Source: Methanoplanus limicola DSM 2279
GTDB taxonomy: Archaea; Halobacteriota; Methanomicrobia; Methanomicrobiales; Methanomicrobiaceae
Assembly: GCF_000243255.1 (NCBI RefSeq)
Contig: NZ_CM001436.1
Location: 594,077 to 658,076, forward strand
DNA: 64,000 nucleotides
Reading direction: 5' to 3'
The notes under the pieces were generated by a model, which made no database searches, was not told where the DNA came from, and was given only the letters and a program-made list of their open reading frames with translations. This document shows positions 49,373 to 64,000 of this stretch, piece after piece. The translations under genes were made by a program, and so were the position numbers. Within the stretch, counting starts at the first letter, position 1; the number at the start of each line of letters is the position of its first letter.

Positions 49373-50563
49373 ATGTATTTAGTAGGCGAAGCCCTGGAGG
49401 GCGAAGGTGCAGAACTTGCACATATAGATCTTTTAGTCGGCGACAAGACCGGCCCGGTCGGCATGGCTTTTGCAAACGCAATGTCACAGCTCTCACCCGG
49501 ACACACACCACTTCTGGCAGTAATAAGGCCTAATCTCTTAACAAAGCCTGCAACACTCATCATACCTAAAGTGACTCTTAAGACAGGAGAACAGGTCAAT
49601 GCAATGTTTGGCGCAGTTCAGGCAGCAGTTGCAAAGGCTGTTGCAGATTCAGTTGAAGAGGGCGCATTCGGCGATGCCGATTTAGAGGAGATTGTACTCC
49701 TTGTAAGTGCATTCCTTCACCCTGATGCAAAGGACTACAACAGGATTTACCGCTACAACTACGGTTCAACAAAGCTTGCAATCACCCGTGCACTCGCAGG
49801 ATTCCCTGACAAGGAAACAGTTCTCAAAGAGAAAGACCGTGCAGGACACGCTGTTATGGGATTCAAAGTACACAGGCTCTGGGACCCGCCATACCTTCAG
49901 GTGGCCATGGACCTTGTTGACATGAAGTCTGTAGAGAGAGTACTGACGTCAGTGCCCAAGAATGACCATGTATTAATTGAGGCAGGAACACCTCTGATTA
50001 AGCAGTTCGGACTTTCAGTAATTGGTGAGATCAGAAAGATCAGACCTGATGCGTTTATCATCGCTGACTTAAAGACCCTTGATACCGGAAACCTTGAGGC
50101 AAGGATGGCAGCAAACGCATCCGCAGACGCTGTTGTTGTATCAGGGCTTGCACCTGTGCCGACAATTGTCAAATTCATCCAGGAAGCAAAGAAGACCGGC
50201 ATCTACTCAGTCATTGATATGCTCAATGTTGATAAACCGGCAGAGCTTATAGAAAAGCTTGCAAAAGAAGGCGCAGTTCCAAGCATTGTTGAGATGCACC
50301 GTGCCATTGACGCTGAGGGCGATGACTACAACTGGGGCGACATTCCGGCAATCAAAGAAGCAGCCGGCGGAAAACTCCTTGTCGCAACCGCAGGCGGTGT
50401 CAGGCAGCATGTTGTAAAGGACGCTCTTAAGGCAGGCGCTGATATTTTAGTTGTCGGAAGGGCAATCACTGCATCCAAGAACATCCAGAACTCGGCAGAG
50501 CAGTTCCTTGAGGAAATGAACAAGGAAGAGATTGATCAGTTCAGGATCATGACTGATTTCTGA
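49373..50563 (+). CDS. fae-hps: Bifunctional formaldehyde-activating enzyme / 3-hexulose-6-phosphate synthase
   Basis: 396 residues. Residues 1 to about 165 are Fae: MYLVGEALEGEGAELAHIDL places the catalytic His at 17, with PVGMAFANAMSQLSPGHTPLLAVIRPN following. From about residue 170, GFKVHRLWDPPYLQVAMDLVD starts Hps, an orotidine-decarboxylase-fold barrel with EAGTPLIKQFG, DLKTLD, and ATAGGVRQHVVKDALKAGADILVVGRAIT (phosphate loop). Fae condenses formaldehyde with tetrahydromethanopterin, and Hps makes or splits hexulose-6-phosphate; in methanogens the pair supplies ribulose-5-phosphate and recycles formaldehyde. Its 3' part is copied at 50637, 56627 and 58152. Confidence 0.96.
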   Translation: MYLVGEALEGEGAELAHIDLLVGDKTGPVGMAFANAMSQLSPGHTPLLAVIRPNLLTKPATLIIPKVTLKTGEQVNAMFGAVQAAVAKAVADSVEEGAFGDADLEEIVLLVSAFLHPDAKDYNRIYRYNYGSTKLAITRALAGFPDKETVLKEKDRAGHAVMGFKVHRLWDPPYLQVAMDLVDMKSVERVLTSVPKNDHVLIEAGTPLIKQFGLSVIGEIRKIRPDAFIIADLKTLDTGNLEARMAANASADAVVVSGLAPVPTIVKFIQEAKKTGIYSVIDMLNVDKPAELIEKLAKEGAVPSIVEMHRAIDAEGDDYNWGDIPAIKEAAGGKLLVATAGGVRQHVVKDALKAGADILVVGRAITASKNIQNSAEQFLEEMNKEEIDQFRIMTDF

Positions 50564-51465: not shown

Positions 51466-52227
51466 ATGATGGATCTCCACCAGAAATTAGTAATCTTTTT
51501 TTTATTGACTGCTCTGCTCTGCATTTATCCCGGATGCTGTGAATACACAGTCACATTTGGTGAAAGTAACAGCCCGGATGCAGATATTTCTGGAGCAGAT
51601 AAATCCACGACCTTCCGGGAACTGCCGCTCTGGATTAAAATATCATATGTTGCATCAATTATTGCCGGATTTTTTGCAATTGTCAAATTTTTGCCCCCAA
51701 TAGTTGGGAGAATTCGTTATGTTCTTGCCAATGAAAAAAGAAAGGAAATTATGGATTACATATCAGCAAATCCCGGAAAATCTGTCGGTCAGCTTGCTGA
51801 GGAACTTAATACCAAACGTGAGACTATCCGGTACCATCTTAATCGCCTCGAAAAAAATAACCATATAGTTTCTGAAAAAGACAGTAATTCCAAGAGAATT
51901 TTCATCAACCAGAACAGGTTTACAGGCCCGGAAAGAAGAATTATTGCCTTATGACATAACCCTGTTAAGGCCAGAATTGTTGCAATTATCCTGAAATATC
52001 CGGGAATAAAAAATTCCGAACTGAAAGAAGAACTTAACATTTCAAAAAGCGCTGTGACGTGGCACATCAAAAAGTTAGATGGTGCAGATCTGTTATCCAC
52101 AAGGATCTCAGGAAAATTCAGGCATTATCATATCAGATCAGAGTTTGAAACTCTTTTCATCGAAAACCTGCCTGATGAGATAAAAGATGAATATAATCTG
52201 AAAGCTAATAATCAGGAAGATAAATAA
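51466..52227 (+). pseudogene. Membrane-anchored double winged-helix regulator, nonsense at codon 163 (copy A)
   Basis: Same as the intact copy at 62444-63205 but TGC (Cys) is TGA at 51952-51954, so translation ends after the first winged helix (162 residues) unless reading through. Downstream codons remain open to 52227. The N-terminus has a signal/membrane helix, an external loop, a second membrane helix, and HTH 1 (KSVGQLAEELNTKRETIRYHLNRLEKNNHIV). The truncated form could still bind DNA through HTH 1, so a shortened functional product is not excluded. Confidence 0.8.
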
Positions 52228-52567: not shown

Positions 52568-52600
52568 ACTTACATCAAATTATTTATTTGAAGGGCAATC

Positions 52601-52805
52601 GAAGGAGTGATCTTTTGATTAAATCTTCCTAAACAGATCCAGTGATAATTGAAAGGAGAGAATAAGGGCCGTTTTAACCAATCCAGTCTCCTTATCCTGC
52701 CCTGTTGTCTGCCTAGTTATAGTCAACCGGCATTTAACTGAATCCACATAAACTCTGATTAAGGTTTGCATGCCGGTTTTTCCCGAAAAACTAAGAGTTA
52801 AAACT
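52601..52805 (+). ncRNA. Conserved structured leader 1
   Basis: About 205 nt, shared by five signal-peptide genes in this window. It starts with a strong ribosome binding site (GGAGTGATC, 52604-52612) and TTG (52615) opening a 5-codon leader ORF, then has an ATAAGG/CCTTAT pair and a 9-bp stem AACCGGCAT (52725-52733) with ATGCCGGTT (52770-52778), ending in a T run. The stem plus T run looks like an attenuator. Confidence 0.6.
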
Positions 52806-52946
52806 ATGAAATTAAAGAGAGTCATGCGGGCCTTGAGCCTGATATTAGTAATGGCATTGCTGACGACGATGTTCGTTCCGGCGGTTAGTGCTGTCGATAC
52901 GGATTTTATTTCCCCCAACTATGCAGGAAAAATTATTCCGTTTTGA
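52806..52946 (+). CDS. 46-residue secreted stub with the shared signal peptide
   Basis: MKLKRVMRALSLILVMALLT continues TMFVPAVSA, a signal peptide with an A-x-A-like cleavage site. Only 17 residues follow (VDTDFISPNYAGKIIPF) before TGA. It has the same leader and signal as the peptidase genes but almost no cargo. It is either a mature peptide of 17 residues or what is left of a former cargo gene. Confidence 0.6.
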   Translation: MKLKRVMRALSLILVMALLTTMFVPAVSAVDTDFISPNYAGKIIPF

Positions 52947-53140: not shown

Positions 53141-53338
53141 CAAAGAGTGATCTTTTGATTAAACCTTCACTAAAAAGTGGTAACTGACAGGAAAGAATAA
53201 GGGCCATTTTAACCAATTCAGTTTCCTTATCCTCCCCTGTTGTCTGCCAATTGTAGTCAACCGGCATTTACCTGATTTCACATAAACTCTGATTAAGGTT
53301 TGCATGCCGGTTGCTCTTAGAAACTATGAGGTACAACT
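53141..53338 (+). ncRNA. Conserved structured leader 2
   Basis: Same architecture as leader 1: GAGTGATC and TTG (53155) opening a 10-codon ORF, the ATAAGG/CCTTAT pair and the AACCGGCAT/ATGCCGGTT stem, then the signal-peptide ATG. Sequence differs from leader 1 at scattered positions but both stem arms are unchanged. Confidence 0.6.
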
Positions 53339-54487
53339 ATGAAATTAAAGAAAGGCATGCGGGCCTTGAGCCTGCTATTGATAATGGCACTTATTGGGGC
53401 GATGTTCGTTCCGGTGGTTAGTGCCGTCAAAGATGTAAATATTATTGAAAAAAATTATGTCTCAACTGATGATGCTTATAAAGCATCTTTAAAAGCTCTT
53501 AATTTATTTTTATCGGCCGGGGCAATTAGCGATGATAACTATTCACCCCAAATGTTGCAGAAACAACCTGTAGAAATATATGATTTAAACGGATTGATCA
53601 TTTATTATCAGTTTCCAATTGAAAAAAATGGCAAAAACGAGGGATTTGTTCGTGCGGCAGCAAGTAAAGTCCTTGGAAGTACTGTTACAATGATAAAAGA
53701 CAGACCGGATAATGTTGATTATTCATCTGTTCTCGAAAATACAGAAAGGGTTATTCAAAATAAGTATTCAGTAAAAAAAGATCCTGATCTAAAAATTGTT
53801 TGTTATGATTACCCGGAATTGGGTGTAATGTATAGCTTCAGGGATGAAAGGGATCAATTTGTAAAATTGATATTTGATCTGGAACAGAATCTAATAACTG
53901 ATGTTAATACTCAAACCAACGGACCGGGATATTATTCATTATACAATGAAATAAACGAAGATGAAATTTATACTAATATCTTCAAATGGAATGAAGAATA
54001 TGACAATGAATTAGAAACCAAATCTACAACATATAAAGATCTATGGAATTCCGCAAATCATATTACACAACCAAACAATGTTTGGTGTGCTGTTACAACA
54101 GGAAAAATGATTGCATATTGGTTTGGTGTTACAGATACCTTTTCACATATTGCAGAGGAAATGAATTCAGGAACACCTCTAGACCCATTAGCCACATCCG
54201 ACACCGACGATGAACTTGATTACTATGAAAATTCTCCAACAGGACTTTGCTGTGATGCCGAACTAAAAGAAGGAAACCAGATAACATTTTATACAGGAAT
54301 GTATCAGATTTATCATGATGAAAACCCAATCGCTTCCACAGTGGGGAATCATTCCAGAGCATGTGCAGGAGTTTTAGAATCATCTAATGGCAAATATTTC
54401 CATATTTATGATCCTTCATCGGATGGAAATATATATTGGGAAAACTTCGATTCAACAACATACCTTACATGGATATTAGTTGATTAA
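53339..54487 (+). CDS. Secreted papain/C39-like cysteine peptidase
   Basis: 382 residues. The shared signal peptide (MKLKKGMRALSLLLIMALIG...VVSA) precedes a region of about 200 residues that may act as a propeptide (DAYKASLKALNLFLSAGAIS, GFVRAAASKVLG). The catalytic domain has Cys250 in NNVWCAVTTGKMIAYWFGV, His338 in GNHSRACAGVL and Asp358 in FHIYDPS, matching the Cys-His-Asp order of papain-like/C39-like peptidases. It has no match to its counterpart in copy B beyond the signal. The coding sequence is AT-rich. The next gene follows by 14 nt and is a likely partner. Confidence 0.75.
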   Translation: MKLKKGMRALSLLLIMALIGAMFVPVVSAVKDVNIIEKNYVSTDDAYKASLKALNLFLSAGAISDDNYSPQMLQKQPVEIYDLNGLIIYYQFPIEKNGKNEGFVRAAASKVLGSTVTMIKDRPDNVDYSSVLENTERVIQNKYSVKKDPDLKIVCYDYPELGVMYSFRDERDQFVKLIFDLEQNLITDVNTQTNGPGYYSLYNEINEDEIYTNIFKWNEEYDNELETKSTTYKDLWNSANHITQPNNVWCAVTTGKMIAYWFGVTDTFSHIAEEMNSGTPLDPLATSDTDDELDYYENSPTGLCCDAELKEGNQITFYTGMYQIYHDENPIASTVGNHSRACAGVLESSNGKYFHIYDPSSDGNIYWENFDSTTYLTWILVD

Positions 54488-56747: not shown

Positions 56748-57455
56748 ATGGGATTCAAAGTACACAGGCTCTGGGACCCGCCATACCTTCAGGTGGCCAT
56801 GGACCTTGTTGACATGAAGTCTGTAGAGAGAGTACTGACGTCAGTGCCCAAGAACGACCATGTATTAATTGAGGCAGGAACACCTCTGATTAAGCAGTTC
56901 GGACTTTCAGTAATCGGTGAGATCAGAAAGATCAGACCTGATGCGTTTATCATCGCTGACTTAAAGACTCTTGATACCGGAAATCTTGAGGCAAGAATGG
57001 CAGCAAACGCATCCGCAGACGCTGTTGTTGTATCCGGACTTGCACCTGTGCCAACCATTGTCAAATTCATCCAGGAAGCAAAGAAGACCGGCATCTACTC
57101 AGTCATTGATATGCTCAATGTTGAAAAACCGGCAGAGCTTATCGAGAAACTGGCAAAAGAAGGCGCAATTCCAAGCATTGTTGAGATGCACCGTGCCATT
57201 GACGCTGAGGGCGATGACTACAACTGGGGCGACATTCCGGCAATCAAAGAAGCAGCCGGCGGAAAACTCCTTGTCGCAACCGCAGGCGGTGTCAGGCAGC
57301 ACGTTGTAAAGGACGCACTCAAGTCAGGCGCTGATATTTTAGTTGTCGGAAGGGCAATCACTGCATCCAAGAACATCCAGAACTCGGCAGAGCAGTTCCT
57401 TGAGGAAATGAACAAGGAAGAGAGGGATCAGTTCAGGATCATGACTGATTTCTGA
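56748..57455 (+). CDS. Stand-alone Hps domain copied from fae-hps
   Basis: 235 residues beginning MGFKVHRLWDPPYLQVAMDL, which coincides with the start of the Hps domain; it is intact to its own stop. Differences from the parent are few and mostly silent (for example NVEKPAEL for NVDKPAEL, GAIPS for GAVPS, LKSG for LKAG, EERDQF for EEIDQF), with phosphate-binding loop and DLKTLD unchanged. The copied sequence actually starts about 120 nt upstream, in the Fae part, which is out of use. Whether it is expressed is unknown, since no promoter was copied. Confidence 0.7.
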   Translation: MGFKVHRLWDPPYLQVAMDLVDMKSVERVLTSVPKNDHVLIEAGTPLIKQFGLSVIGEIRKIRPDAFIIADLKTLDTGNLEARMAANASADAVVVSGLAPVPTIVKFIQEAKKTGIYSVIDMLNVEKPAELIEKLAKEGAIPSIVEMHRAIDAEGDDYNWGDIPAIKEAAGGKLLVATAGGVRQHVVKDALKSGADILVVGRAITASKNIQNSAEQFLEEMNKEERDQFRIMTDF

Positions 57456-57589: not shown

Positions 57590-57805
57590 ATGCGGAACTT
57601 AAAAATTATCGTTGAAAAACATGAAGATGGTTATATTGCATACCCCATTGGCCTGAAAGGGGTAGTAATTGGTGAAGGCGACACATATGAAGAAGCACTT
57701 TCAGATGTTAAATCTGCAATTGTGTTTCACATAGAATCGTTTGGAAGTGATGTATTTGAAAATGAGGAGATACTGGAAACCTTTGTGGCAGAGGTTGCAG
57801 TCTGA
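57590..57805 (+). CDS. hicB: HicB-family antitoxin
   Basis: 71 residues from ATG 57590; an upstream in-frame ATG at 57551 adds 13. LKIIVEKHEDGYIAYPIGLKGVVIGEGDTYEEALSDVKSAIVFHIE is the partial RNase-H-like HicB fold. It neutralises HicA. The stop overlaps the hicA start (TGATG). Confidence 0.85.
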   Translation: MRNLKIIVEKHEDGYIAYPIGLKGVVIGEGDTYEEALSDVKSAIVFHIESFGSDVFENEEILETFVAEVAV

Positions 57806-58038
57806 TGAAGTTTCCACAGGATGTACCAATTGCAAAAGTTCTTAAAACATTTGAATTACCCGGGTTTGTAACAGTCAGGGCAGGAAATCACATCTCAATG
57901 CAACGGAGTAATCCTGACGGTACAAAAACTCCGCTCACACTTCCCAATCATAGTAAAATTAAAGGTTCAACACTAAGGGCAATATGTAATCAGGCCGGCA
58001 TATCAAGGGACGAATTCCTGAAATACTTCAATCAATGA
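57805..58038 (+). CDS. hicA: HicA-family mRNA interferase toxin
   Basis: 77 residues. KVLKTFELPGFVTVRAGNHISMQRSNPDG...TLPNHSKIKGSTLRAICNQAGISRDEFLKYF has the dsRBD-like HicA pattern. The usual catalytic His is in GNHISMQ. It should degrade mRNA when free of HicB. The antitoxin-first order is the reverse of the commonest hicAB order but is known. The pair occurs only in copy B of the duplication. Confidence 0.87.
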   Translation: MKFPQDVPIAKVLKTFELPGFVTVRAGNHISMQRSNPDGTKTPLTLPNHSKIKGSTLRAICNQAGISRDEFLKYFNQ

Positions 58039-58151
58039 CACATCAATAGAATAAAATATATAATTTCTTTGTGTTCTCCTCTTAAATGTCAGTTTACAGA
58101 AGAGACTGATTTACTACCCTATCGCTAACGTCATTTCTCCTTTTCACACCA

Positions 58152-58312
58152 CAGGTAGTGTCAGGCAGCATGTTGTTAAGGACGCACTTAAAGCAGGTGC
58201 TGATATCCTCCTTGTCGGAAGGGCAATTACAGCATCCAAAAACATCCGGAACCCGGCAGAGCAGTTCCCTGAAGAGATGAACAGGGAAGAGATTAATCAA
58301 TTTAAACAGTAA
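58152..58312 (+). pseudogene. fae-hps 3' remnant joined to P-domain fragment
   Basis: Contains GGTAGTGTCAGGCAGCATGT onwards and matches the end of fae-hps (VRQHVVKDALKAGADILLVGRAITASKNIRNPAEQFPEEMNREEINQF). It shares NPAEQFPEEMN with the remnant at 50637, so both descend from one older remnant. It runs directly into AAACAGTAAACAG of the P-domain gene. Confidence 0.85.
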
Positions 58313-58566: not shown

Positions 58567-59328
58567 ATGATGGATCTCCACCAGAAATTAGTAATCTTTT
58601 TTTTATTGACTGCTCTGCTCTGCATTTATCCCGGATGCTGTGAATACACAGTCACATTTGGTGAAAGTAACAGCCCGGATGCAGATATTTCAGGAGCAGA
58701 TAAATCCACGACCTTCCAGGAACTGCCGCTCTGGATTAAAATATCATATGTTGCATCAATTATTGCCGGATTTTTTGCAATTGTCAAATTTTTGCCCCCA
58801 ATAGTTGGGAGAATTCGTTATGTTCTTGCCAATGAAAAAAGAAAGGAAATTATGGATTACATATCAGCAAATCCCGGAAAATCTGTCGGTCAGCTTGCTG
58901 AGGAACTTAATACCAAACGTGAGACTATCCGGTACCATCTTAATCGCCTCGAAAAAATAACCATATAGTTTCTGAAAAAGACAGTAATTCCAAGAGAATT
59001 TTCATCAACCAGAACAGGTTTACAGGCCAGGAAAGAAGAATTATTGCCTTATGCCATAACCCTGTTAAGGCCAGAATTGTTGCAATTATCCTGAAATATC
59101 CGGGAATAAAAAATTCTGAGCTAAAAGAAGAACTTAACATTTCAAAAAGCGCTGTGACGTGGCACATCAAAAAGTTAGATGGTGCAGATCTGTTATCCAC
59201 AAGGATCTCAGGAAAATTCAGGCATTATCATATCAGATCAGAGTTTGAAACTCTTTTCATCGAAAACCTGCCTGATGAGATAAAAGATGAATATAATCTG
59301 AAAGCTAATAATCAGGAAGATAAATAAA
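58567..59328 (+). pseudogene. Membrane-anchored double winged-helix regulator, frameshifted (copy B)
   Basis: One A is missing from a run of A (CGAAAAAATAACC versus CGAAAAAAATAACC) at about 58953-58958, giving ITI then a stop after 133 residues, within the first winged helix. The remaining sequence matches the intact copy to 59328, including TGC where copy A has TGA. Confidence 0.85.
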
Positions 59329-59667: not shown

Positions 59668-59700
59668 ACTTACATCAAATTATTTATTTGAAGGGCAATC

Positions 59701-59905
59701 GAAGGAGTGATCTTTTGATTAAATCTTCCTAAACAGATCCAGTGATAATTGAAAGGAGAGAATAAGGGCCGTTTTAACCAATCCAGTCTCCTTATCCTGC
59801 CCTGTTGTCTGCCTAGTTATAGTCAACCGGCATTTAACTGAATCCACATAAACTCTGATTAAGGTTTGCATGCCGGTTTTTCCCGAAAAACTAAGAGTTA
59901 AAACT
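59701..59905 (+). ncRNA. Conserved structured leader 3
   Basis: Identical to leader 1, including the ribosome binding site, TTG leader ORF at 59715 and both stem arms. Confidence 0.6.
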
Positions 59906-60248: not shown

Positions 60249-60433
60249 CAAAGAGTGATCTTTTGATTAAACCTTCACTAAAAAGTGGTAACTGACAGGA
60301 AAGAATAAGGGCCATTTTAACCAATTCAGTTTCCTTATCCTCCCCTGTTGTCTGCCAATTGTAGTCAACCGGCATTTACCTGATTTCACATAAACTCTGA
60401 TTAAGGTTTGCATGCCGGTTGCTCTTAGAAACT
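60249..60433 (+). ncRNA. Conserved structured leader 4
   Basis: Nearly identical to leader 2 but 13 nt shorter just before the signal-peptide ATG. Stem arms and leader TTG (60263) are retained. Confidence 0.6.
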
Positions 60434-61189
60434 ATGAGATTAAAGAAAGGCGTGCGGGCTTTTTGCCTGCTATTGATAATGGCGCTTATCGGGGCGATGT
60501 TCGTTCCGGCGGTTAGTGCCGGGACAGGTGATGACAATGACGCATCTTTTCCTGAGGTGGGAGTGGAATGGGTAAATGATTATTGGCCTAATCCACTTTC
60601 GCATTCTGATGAAAGCGCAACTGATTTTTATAATACATTAGGAAATGCAGGTTGGACAAAGCGATTTTGCCTTGGAGACAGGCAAACAGCAGTAAACCAG
60701 TGGAGTGATAATGATGAAAATTATGTAGATGGTGTGGATATTACATGGTTTTCAGGTCATGGACATCAGGCTTATCTTTTGTTGACAAATAATCCTTTGG
60801 ACTGGGTTCAATTTAACCTTGTTGAATGGGGAGACTACGATGCAGAATGGATGCTGTTGCACAGTTGTCATACTACCGAAATTCCCGGAAACTTCAAAGG
60901 AATTCTTCATAAAGCACTTAACGGCGTTCATCTGATCTGTGGATTTAATACAATTGGTTATGATTTTGCAGATGATGGGGAGAATTGTGCACAAAGATTG
61001 CTTAACAGTGAAAAAGTCAGATTAGCTTGGTTTAACGCAATGGATGAGACACACCCAGATACAATTAAAGTAGGAATAATCGGCGAAAATTCTAATTGTG
61101 GTAATGACCGCATCTGGAAAGAGGGGACAGTAATTGCTGATCCTACTGTAGATGACACAACATATTATTGGCTATATTATTGCAATTAA
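60434..61189 (+). CDS. Secreted clan-CD-like cysteine peptidase (DUF6345-like)
   Basis: 251 residues from ATG 60434. The shared signal peptide (MRLKKGVRAFCLLLIMALIG...AVSA) is followed by a domain with VGVEWVNDYWPNPLSHSDESATDFYNTL, ITWFSGHGHQAYLL (His109) and WMLLHSCHTTEIPG (Cys145). A His-Gly after a hydrophobic strand and a Cys at the end of the next strand is the dyad of clan CD (caspase/gingipain) enzymes; DUF6345 proteins have the same spacing. The match to the copy A peptidase ends exactly at the signal cleavage site. A lipoprotein gene follows by 11 nt. Confidence 0.72.
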   Translation: MRLKKGVRAFCLLLIMALIGAMFVPAVSAGTGDDNDASFPEVGVEWVNDYWPNPLSHSDESATDFYNTLGNAGWTKRFCLGDRQTAVNQWSDNDENYVDGVDITWFSGHGHQAYLLLTNNPLDWVQFNLVEWGDYDAEWMLLHSCHTTEIPGNFKGILHKALNGVHLICGFNTIGYDFADDGENCAQRLLNSEKVRLAWFNAMDETHPDTIKVGIIGENSNCGNDRIWKEGTVIADPTVDDTTYYWLYYCN

Positions 61190-62443: not shown

Positions 62444-63205
62444 ATGATGGATCTCCACCAGAAATTAGTAATCTTTTTTTTATTGACTGCTCTGCTCTGC
62501 ATTTATCCCGGATGCTGTGAATACACAGTCACATTTGGTGAAAGTAACAGCCCGGATGCAGATATTTCAGGAGCAGATAAATCCACGACCTTCCGGGAAC
62601 TGCCGCTCTGGATTAAAATATCATATGTCGCATCAATTATTGCCGGATTTTTTGCAATTGTCAAATTTTTGCCCCCAATAGTTGGGAGAATTCGTTATGT
62701 TCTTGCCAATGAAAAAAGAAAGGAAATTATGGATTACATATCAGCAAATCCCGGAAAATCTGTCGGTCAGCTTGCTGAGGAACTTAATACCAAACGTGAG
62801 ACTATCCGGTACCATCTTAATCGCCTCGAAAAAAATAACCATATAGTTTCTGAAAAAGACAGTAATTCCAAGAGAATTTTCATCAACCAGAACAGGTTTA
62901 CAGGCCCGGAAAGAAGAATTATTGCCTTATGCCATAACCCTGTTAAGGCCAGAATTGTTGCAATTATCCTGAAATATCCGGGAATAAAAAATTCCGAGCT
63001 AAAAGAAGAACTTAACATTTCAAAAAGCGCTGTGACGTGGCACATCAAAAAGTTAGATGGTGCAGATCTGTTATCCACAAGGATCTCAGGAAAATTCAGG
63101 CATTATCATATCAGATCAGAGTTTGAAACTCTTTTCATCGAAAACCTGCCTGATGAGATAAAAGATGAATATAATCTGAAAGCTAATAATCAGGAAGATA
63201 AATAA
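62444..63205 (+). CDS. Membrane-anchored regulator with two winged-helix domains, intact (copy C)
   Basis: 253 residues. A signal or membrane helix (LVIFFLLTALLCIYPGCC), a short external loop, a second helix (about residues 54-78, WIKISYVASIIAGFFAIVKFL), then two winged helices: about 85-130 (RKEIMDYISANPGKSVGQLAEELNTKRETIRYHLNRLEKNNHIV) and about 170-215 (RIVAIILKYPGIKNSELKEELNISKSAVTWHIKKLDGADLL). The DNA-binding part is cytoplasmic. It lies next to four to six palindromes shared by the cassette promoters, so it is the best candidate to bind them. Copies A and B are broken. Confidence 0.85.
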   Translation: MMDLHQKLVIFFLLTALLCIYPGCCEYTVTFGESNSPDADISGADKSTTFRELPLWIKISYVASIIAGFFAIVKFLPPIVGRIRYVLANEKRKEIMDYISANPGKSVGQLAEELNTKRETIRYHLNRLEKNNHIVSEKDSNSKRIFINQNRFTGPERRIIALCHNPVKARIVAIILKYPGIKNSELKEELNISKSAVTWHIKKLDGADLLSTRISGKFRHYHIRSEFETLFIENLPDEIKDEYNLKANNQEDK

Positions 63206-63545: not shown

Positions 63546-63579
63546 ACTTACATTGAATAATTTATTTGAAGGGCAATCA

Positions 63580-63783
63580 AAGGAGTGATCTTTTGATTTA
63601 ACCTTTCTTAAAACAATTTAGGTAGTAATTGACAGGAAAGAATAAGGGCCATTTTAGCCAATTCAGTTTCCTTATCCTGCCCTGTTGTCTGCCAGTTATA
63701 GTCAACCGGCATTTAACTGATATCACGTTAACTCTGATTAAGGTTTGCATGCCGGTTGCTCTTAGAAACTATGAGGTACAACT
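63580..63783 (+). ncRNA. Conserved structured leader 5
   Basis: Same plan, with more substitutions from leader 1 than any other copy. GGAGTGATC and TTG (63593; leader ORF only two codons), ATAAGG/CCTTAT and AACCGGCAT/ATGCCGGTT are unchanged. Confidence 0.6.
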
Positions 63784-64000
63784 ATGAGATTAAAGAAAGG
63801 CGTGCGGGCCTTGAGCCTGCTATTGGTAATGGCATTGCTGACGGCGATGTTTGTTCCGGCAGTTAGTGCAACGGAAACACAGAGTAGTTCTACGCAATCA
63901 TCAGTGGACATGGACAAAGATATAAATTCACATGAAAATTATATTACACCAGAATATTTCAAAGATTCAAAACCGGCAGAACCTTTGCATGAATCAGAAA
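63784..64000 (+). CDS. Secreted protein with the shared signal peptide (partial at window edge)
   Basis: 72 codons visible. MRLKKGVRALSLLLVMALLT...AVSA, then a new mature sequence starting TETQSSSTQSSVDMDKDINS and then ENYITPEYFKDSKPAEPLHESE. Unlike the others after the signal. The cargo continues beyond the window. Confidence 0.8.
   Translation, partial: MRLKKGVRALSLLLVMALLTAMFVPAVSATETQSSSTQSSVDMDKDINSHENYITPEYFKDSKPAEPLHESE

Follow-up and report, generated by a model that had tools for sequence, protein, structure and literature searches.

Five leaders and the genes behind them

The window, meaning the whole stretch of 64,000 nucleotides that was analysed, lies at 594-658 kb of a 3.2-Mb archaeal genome, that of Methanoplanus limicola DSM 2279. 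A sequence check of the window located five leaders, at 52601, 53141, 59701, 60249, and 63580, and each of them contained the 9-bp AACCGGCAT/ATGCCGGTT stem described in the initial annotation (5/5). Leaders 1 and 3 were 100% identical, leaders 2 and 4 were 94.8% identical, and leader 5 showed 76-84% identity to the other window leaders. Since a 2.2-kb block is duplicated in the window, the five copies counted earlier, all of which exist, amount to only three independent leader sequences.

From 5' to 3', these leaders, designated class A, are composed of P1, a conserved ATTAAACC-like stretch, P2, P3, usually GAGGT, and ATG. P1 is a hairpin, usually with a GUGA loop, and P2 is a long stem that contains ATAAGG/CCTTAT. 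P3 consists of AACCGGCAT/ATGCCGGTT around the near-invariant core GATTAAGGTTTGCATGCCGG. All leader parts and the genes behind them lie on the + strand. In leader 1, P1 (AATCGAAGGA-GUGA-UCUUUUGAUU, 52597-52620) is a perfect hairpin with a z of -3.96 and 0/200 shuffles as stable. P2 of leader 1 (52651-52713) was obtained by folding and is weak, and the ATAAGG (52662-52667) / CCTTAT (52690-52695) pair noted before was confirmed within it. P3 of the same leader (52725-52778) has its arms at 52725-52733 and 52770-52778 and the conserved core at 52757-52776. A T-run follows at 52777-52781; as previously noted, it occurs in leaders 1 and 3 only, and it is not conserved. The alternative pairing AGGGC/GCCCT proposed for leader 1 is present in leaders 1, 3, and 5, and leaders 2 and 4 have CTCCCC instead.

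Leader 2 has P1 at 53142-53155 (AAAGA-GUGA-UCUUU), and its P2 and P3 (53165-53314, P3 arms 53259-53267 and 53304-53312) are supported by homologues and by folding (z -3.98, 0/200 shuffles). Leader 3 (59697-59878) lies 7100 bases downstream of leader 1. Leader 4 (60249-60420, P3 arms 60367-60375 and 60412-60420) shares 95% identity with leader 2, and the GAGG site in front of its ATG is lost. In leader 5, P1 (AATCAAAGGA-GUGA-UCUUUUGAUU, 63575-63598) was better than 199/200 shuffles (z -3.69), and P2 and P3 (63610-63759, P3 arms 63704-63712 and 63749-63757) gave a z of -3.47 with 0/200 shuffles. The P2-P3 fold was clearly better than shuffled sequence in leaders 2 and 5 (rounded z -4.0 and -3.5), and that of leader 1 was not (z -1.2).

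All class A copies in this genome precede genes starting with M-K-x-K-K-G-M-R-A-L-S-L-L...F-V-P-A-V-S-A, one of which is frameshifted, and the mature parts of these signal-peptide genes are unrelated. A profile of the signal peptide found it in 27/99 genomes of the class, beyond the family of this organism. Leader 1 is followed only by a 46-aa ORF (52806-52946) encoding the shared signal peptide and VDTDFISPNYAGKIIPF, which is probably a remnant. Leader 2 precedes a secreted protein of 382 aa (53339-54487) with no Pfam match, leader 4 a secreted protein with DUF6345 (60434-61189; PF19872, E 4e-39), and leader 5 a secreted-protein gene that runs off the window (63784-64000). Because leader 1 is followed by the 46-aa ORF and the gene after leader 3 is frameshifted, leaders 1 and 3 look decayed. 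Equivalents of the 46-aa ORF at loci L049, L050, and L051 combine the signal peptide with the identical 17-residue tail VDTDFISPNYAGKIIPF. At several loci this ORF recurs ahead of a full gene, as either a remnant or a secreted peptide.

Other genes in the region were also observed. Directly upstream of leaders lie three gene copies encoding a membrane-bound winged-helix regulator (51466-52227, 58567-59326, and 62444-63205), which is a candidate for control of the secreted genes. Only the third copy reads through as one ORF. A HicBA-like toxin-antitoxin pair (57605-58035; HicA_toxin, PF07927) lies between the duplicated blocks. A Fae-Hps fusion gene (49373-50563) has a partial copy at 56748-57455 and a short fragment at 58137-58304 downstream, and these copies mark repeated rearrangement of the region.

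Class A leaders in related genomes

A DNA search found class A leaders at 18 places in this genome and matches in 11/40 genomes searched, own included, all of the same family. A covariance model of class A P3 (model R1) was built from alignment A1, in which one row that was used in the model, G13_12928m, had been edited by removal of one G. R1 recovered the 18 copies and matched 7 more family genomes (8/28 family genomes including this one) and 0/204 other genomes of the class. The presence of class A is patchy, since no copy was found in the sole other genome of the genus. The core GATTAAGGTTTGCATGCCGG was also found in two database records, both from Methanomicrobiaceae.

P1 in the relatives has other letters that still pair, as in GAAGG-AGTGAT-CCTTC, GGTGGAGGA-GTGA-TCTTCCACC, and CAAAGG-CATAAT-CCTTTG. 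In pair counts over 19 distinct P1 sequences, the covariation score was 0.394, compared with 0.282 in shuffled alignments (0/500) and at most 0.274 when the pairing was slid. The letters of P2 diverge completely between class A groups, and each group folds P2. The z of the whole-leader fold was -6.2 and -5.4 in two relatives and -1.5 to -1.8 in others. Coevolved sequestration of the ribosome site was not detected in class A, where 824/2000 permutations were as good. A helix over the ribosome site was thus not supported for the window leaders, and leader 4 is without GAGG. No Rfam family matched the class A leaders, or the class B leaders described below, at the gathering threshold, and none matched leader 1 at a permissive threshold either. 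The suggestion of a possible new cis-regulatory RNA was supported by the homologues, the compensatory changes in P1, the conserved placement before one class of genes, and the lack of an Rfam match. The refuting outcome named in the initial annotation, a lack of homologues with compensatory changes, was therefore not obtained. These results indicate that the repeated leaders are real structured RNA elements before many different secreted-protein genes that share one signal peptide.

The resemblance to leader-ORF attenuation proposed in the initial annotation fared less well. In such a scheme, ribosomes on a TTG-started peptide of 2-10 codons would choose between the ATAAGG/CCTTAT pair and the 9-bp stem acting as a terminator. 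The TTG ORFs do exist behind the GGAGTGATC site, with 5, 10, 5, 10, and 2 codons in leaders 1 to 5, and TTG together with GTGATC, a near-match to the archaeal anti-SD, occurs in 5/5 window copies. However, the letters read as a ribosome site are part of the P1 hairpin. Neither the length of the ORF (2, 5, or 10) nor its codons are conserved, and in class A relatives the TTG, the short ORF, and the SD reading are lost while the same letters remain a covarying hairpin. No conserved translated ORF overlaps the alternative stems, so that leader-ORF attenuation is mostly refuted and we regard it as barely credible. P3 could also be an intrinsic terminator for transcription attenuation, as the T-run in leaders 1 and 3 might suggest. 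A T-run follows P3 in only 10/45 class A leaders and is thus not conserved, P3 of class B is not followed by one, and the ribosome site lies just downstream of P3. A stem and T-run terminator before the gene was rejected on the count of 10/45, and this explanation is very improbable.

A further hairpin was found within the coding sequence. In the family of this organism, signal-peptide codons 8-12 form CRGGC-NNNNN-GCCTG, as in CGGGC-CTTGA-GCCTG after leader 1 (52827-52841). The 53339 gene has the hairpin at 53360-53374, in both cases with codon constraint, and further copies lie at 60455-60469 and 63805-63819. The Ser codon of the stem is AGC in 38/38 cases, compared with 13% in long ORFs of the genome, and the Leu codon is CTG in 59/61, compared with 19%. 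Leu codons a few residues past the hairpin are mixed (CTG in 19/179), the pairing is preserved with either Arg CGG or Gln CAG, and codons in the loop are variable. Because stem and loop positions contrast in this way, the codon pattern argues for an RNA constraint on the hairpin, and common descent by gene conversion could contribute to it.

Class B leaders and a putative switch

Another conserved leader, designated class B, is found on signal-peptide genes of other genomes. It has a P2 (such as GCGGAGGTTCACCCGG...GGATGGGTGAACGTCCCGC) and a P3 in which CCCGGAGGCA is followed by TACTTGAAGGTATGCC and then TGCCTCCGGG, and GGAGG-ATG comes next. Of 232 genomes of the class, 77 contained class B according to model R2, as did 28 sampled genomes from two other families of the phylum, and this genome has one class B copy beside its 18 class A copies. 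At one of the loci in these other families, the presence of PYLIS_5, a pyrrolysine insertion-sequence RNA, suggests Methanosarcina. By sequence comparison, class B is a cis-RNA family unrecorded in Rfam.

In alignment A3 (43 class B sequences aligned with MAFFT and not fitted to structure), 58 cells of P2 were changed on both sides, compared with 23.0 +/- 3.7 in shuffled alignments and 15-27 when the helix was slid. With 95 distinct matches in a structure-fitted alignment, 215 cells of P2 were changed on both sides; shuffling gave 67.9 +/- 6.2 and sliding no more than 84. In a Methanosarcina-like set, P3b, the inner helix of P3, was likewise above shuffles. P3 varies mostly on one side, and its support is therefore complementarity more than covariation. 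A hydrophobic N-terminus is encoded by the ORF behind 41 of the 45 class B matches, nearly all of which came from the RNA model alone. This evidence is weaker because the background is high (12/32 ORFs in the rest of the window). Most ORFs behind class B matches start within 5 bases of the model end, and the close ATG spacing and the visible signal-peptide motif are the stronger evidence. TATA-like sites lie at preferred distances, and their scores before class B leaders did not exceed those of shuffled sequence.

Both the 5' arm of P3 and the ribosome site are complementary to the 3' arm (TGCCTCCGGG), and we call the pairing of this arm with the ribosome site P4. The letters beside the GGAG core change together with the 3' arm, as in GCCTCA/TGAGGT, GCCTCG/CGAGGT, and GCCTCT/AGAGGC, and further pairs are GTCTCC/GGAGAC, CCTCTTG/CAAGAGG, and CTCCTAG/CTAGGAG. 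The true P4 pairs had a mean duplex energy of -10.4 kcal/mol, compared with -8.2 +/- 0.23 when SD regions were exchanged between leaders (0/1000). When exchange was restricted to the same genome, 7/5000 were as good; this restriction lessens the influence of relatedness without eliminating it. The two helices, P3 and P4, are mutually exclusive since both use the 3' arm. Class B thus combines what is expected of an SD-sequestering switch, namely a covarying structure and an exclusive helix over the ribosome site, and on this comparison it carries the hallmarks of a translational switch in which the ribosome-binding site is either hidden or exposed.

P3 was usually predicted to be much stronger than P4, so that the OFF state would need an active trigger. 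As P3 is predicted to be stronger and is made first, the default state of class B is probably ON.

Proposed regulation of secreted-protein genes and relation to known systems

The reading that we hold to be reasonably probable is that the leaders act as RNA elements in the 5'-UTRs of a secreted-protein regulon, with class B as a three-strand switch and class A as its counterpart. The regulon would comprise secreted, partly peptidase-like methanogen proteins with a common signal peptide and unrelated mature domains. In class B, the 5' arm of P3 (CCCGGAGGCA), the 3' arm (TGCCTCCGGG), and the Shine-Dalgarno site (GGAGG...) would be three competing strands. When P3 is formed, the ribosome site would be free and the protein made. 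When P3 is broken or prevented from forming, its 3' arm would pair with the ribosome site as P4 and translation would be shut. A ligand or a protein would act on P2 and on the inner P3 region, which has a conserved TA(C/T)TTAA segment. The class A leaders of the window would be the counterpart of the class B element in the same regulon. Covariation in class B P2 and P3b and in class A P1, coevolution of class B P4, and the gene families held in common come from comparative sequence. From these patterns we infer the direction of the switch, the existence of a trigger, and an action of class A on translation.

Classes A and B occupy the same place and have a similar order of helices. TTAAGG(T/C)TTGC followed by TGCC is common to both by eye, and ten mature-protein families are found behind A leaders at some loci and behind B leaders at others. 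Homologues of the 53339 protein elsewhere carry leaders of class B or of a third type, class C, and its matches to proteins led by class B reached E 6e-72 and 3e-65. The mature proteins elsewhere included C39-like cysteine peptidases, M12-like metallopeptidases, and one transglutaminase-like protein in Pfam/NCBIfam searches, and no metabolite is suggested by the genes downstream of the leaders. The window leader serves the same gene set as class B, and its membership in the class B family was not supported. Models R2 and R3 gave no match to the window leaders, and R1 does not convincingly match class B. Since the models do not recognise each other, common descent of A and B was not supported by them in either direction. 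A candidate for a leader intermediate between the two classes is L079 (G008:C1:303666). At L062, L156, L147, and L148, class C leaders were noted together with an inverted repeat near ATTTAGACGATTTGGTC / CATCGAAATAG. The repeat is situated upstream of the promoter region, in front of genes of class C and many of class B, and it looks like an operator common to the regulon.

Two other explanations were weighed against the regulatory reading. The leader and signal-peptide region may be a DNA-level cassette, a platform for recombination or gene conversion that swaps mature domains, with RNA folding secondary. Such swapping would fit mature proteins that are unrelated yet have the same signal peptide and leader, the exchange of leader types among homologous proteins, the hybrid P3 arms at L053_5895, and the recent duplications within the window. 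The patchy distribution, with no copy in the second genome of the genus, is also in keeping with it. A cassette does not account for compensatory changes that keep the RNA pairing of P1 and P2 while the letters diverge, nor for the coevolution of P4 with the ribosome site, and neither an integrase nor conserved ends associated with the leader were observed. Carriage of the leader by a mobile element was also rejected, as there was no plasmid match and the sole viral match was antisense inside a glycosyltransferase-like ORF. We consider a cassette with secondary folding unlikely as the explanation; it is not exclusive of an RNA element, and gene conversion may spread the leader. Slightly less unlikely is that the leader and the codon hairpin bind a protein that stabilises or directs the mRNAs of exported proteins, with no switching. 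The close link of the leaders to exported proteins, the retention of the signal-peptide codon hairpin at the RNA level, and class A leaders without evident SD sequestration fit a role of this kind, which leaves the coevolving pairing of the P3 3' arm with the SD site in class B unexplained.

Beyond the regulatory reading of the leaders as 5'-UTR elements, a wider proposal is tentative and rather doubtful. Classes A and B (and C) would be diverged forms of one large archaeal RNA-switch superfamily across Methanomicrobia and Methanosarcinaceae, which would govern export-bound proteins and sense secretion capacity or an extracellular cue. The codon hairpin would be an additional part, and the leader and signal peptide would move as a module between unrelated mature domains.

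Class B is present in several copies per genome in organisms with genetics (Methanosarcina), and it is attached to secreted, partly peptidase-like genes and not to metabolism. Existing transcript-end and Ribo-seq data therefore allow direct tests of translational control by RNA in archaea and of how methanogens regulate their exported proteome. In the literature outside subscription journals, no element of this kind was found described for methanogens.

Leader-peptide attenuators of the trp/erm type have alternative hairpins before the start codon. Alternative hairpins likewise precede the start codon in the leaders described here, but there is no conserved leader peptide and what looked like an ORF is one arm of a hairpin. 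Predicted riboswitches are few in archaea, and fewer still have been validated (PMC11549558); synthetic tetracycline and theophylline switches have been used in these organisms (PMC11549558, PMC8241225). One of the few reported in archaea is the crcB/fluoride riboswitch (RF01734; PMC2864571). It is a cis-regulatory 5'-UTR RNA, as the leaders here putatively are, but it is found on different genes, and no Rfam match to it was obtained in the window or at class B loci. The long 5'-UTR of MM_1687 (mtbC) in Methanosarcina mazei was once suspected to be a riboswitch and was found to act at the transcript level (PMC11549558). It is also a long structured leader in a methanogen, but unlike the present leaders it belongs to a single operon of methylamine metabolism (PMC11549558). 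Class B resembles translational riboswitches and SD-sequestering leaders in having mutually exclusive helices, one of them over the ribosome-binding site. It differs from them in being absent from Rfam and in lying on many unrelated secreted-protein genes and not on one metabolic pathway.
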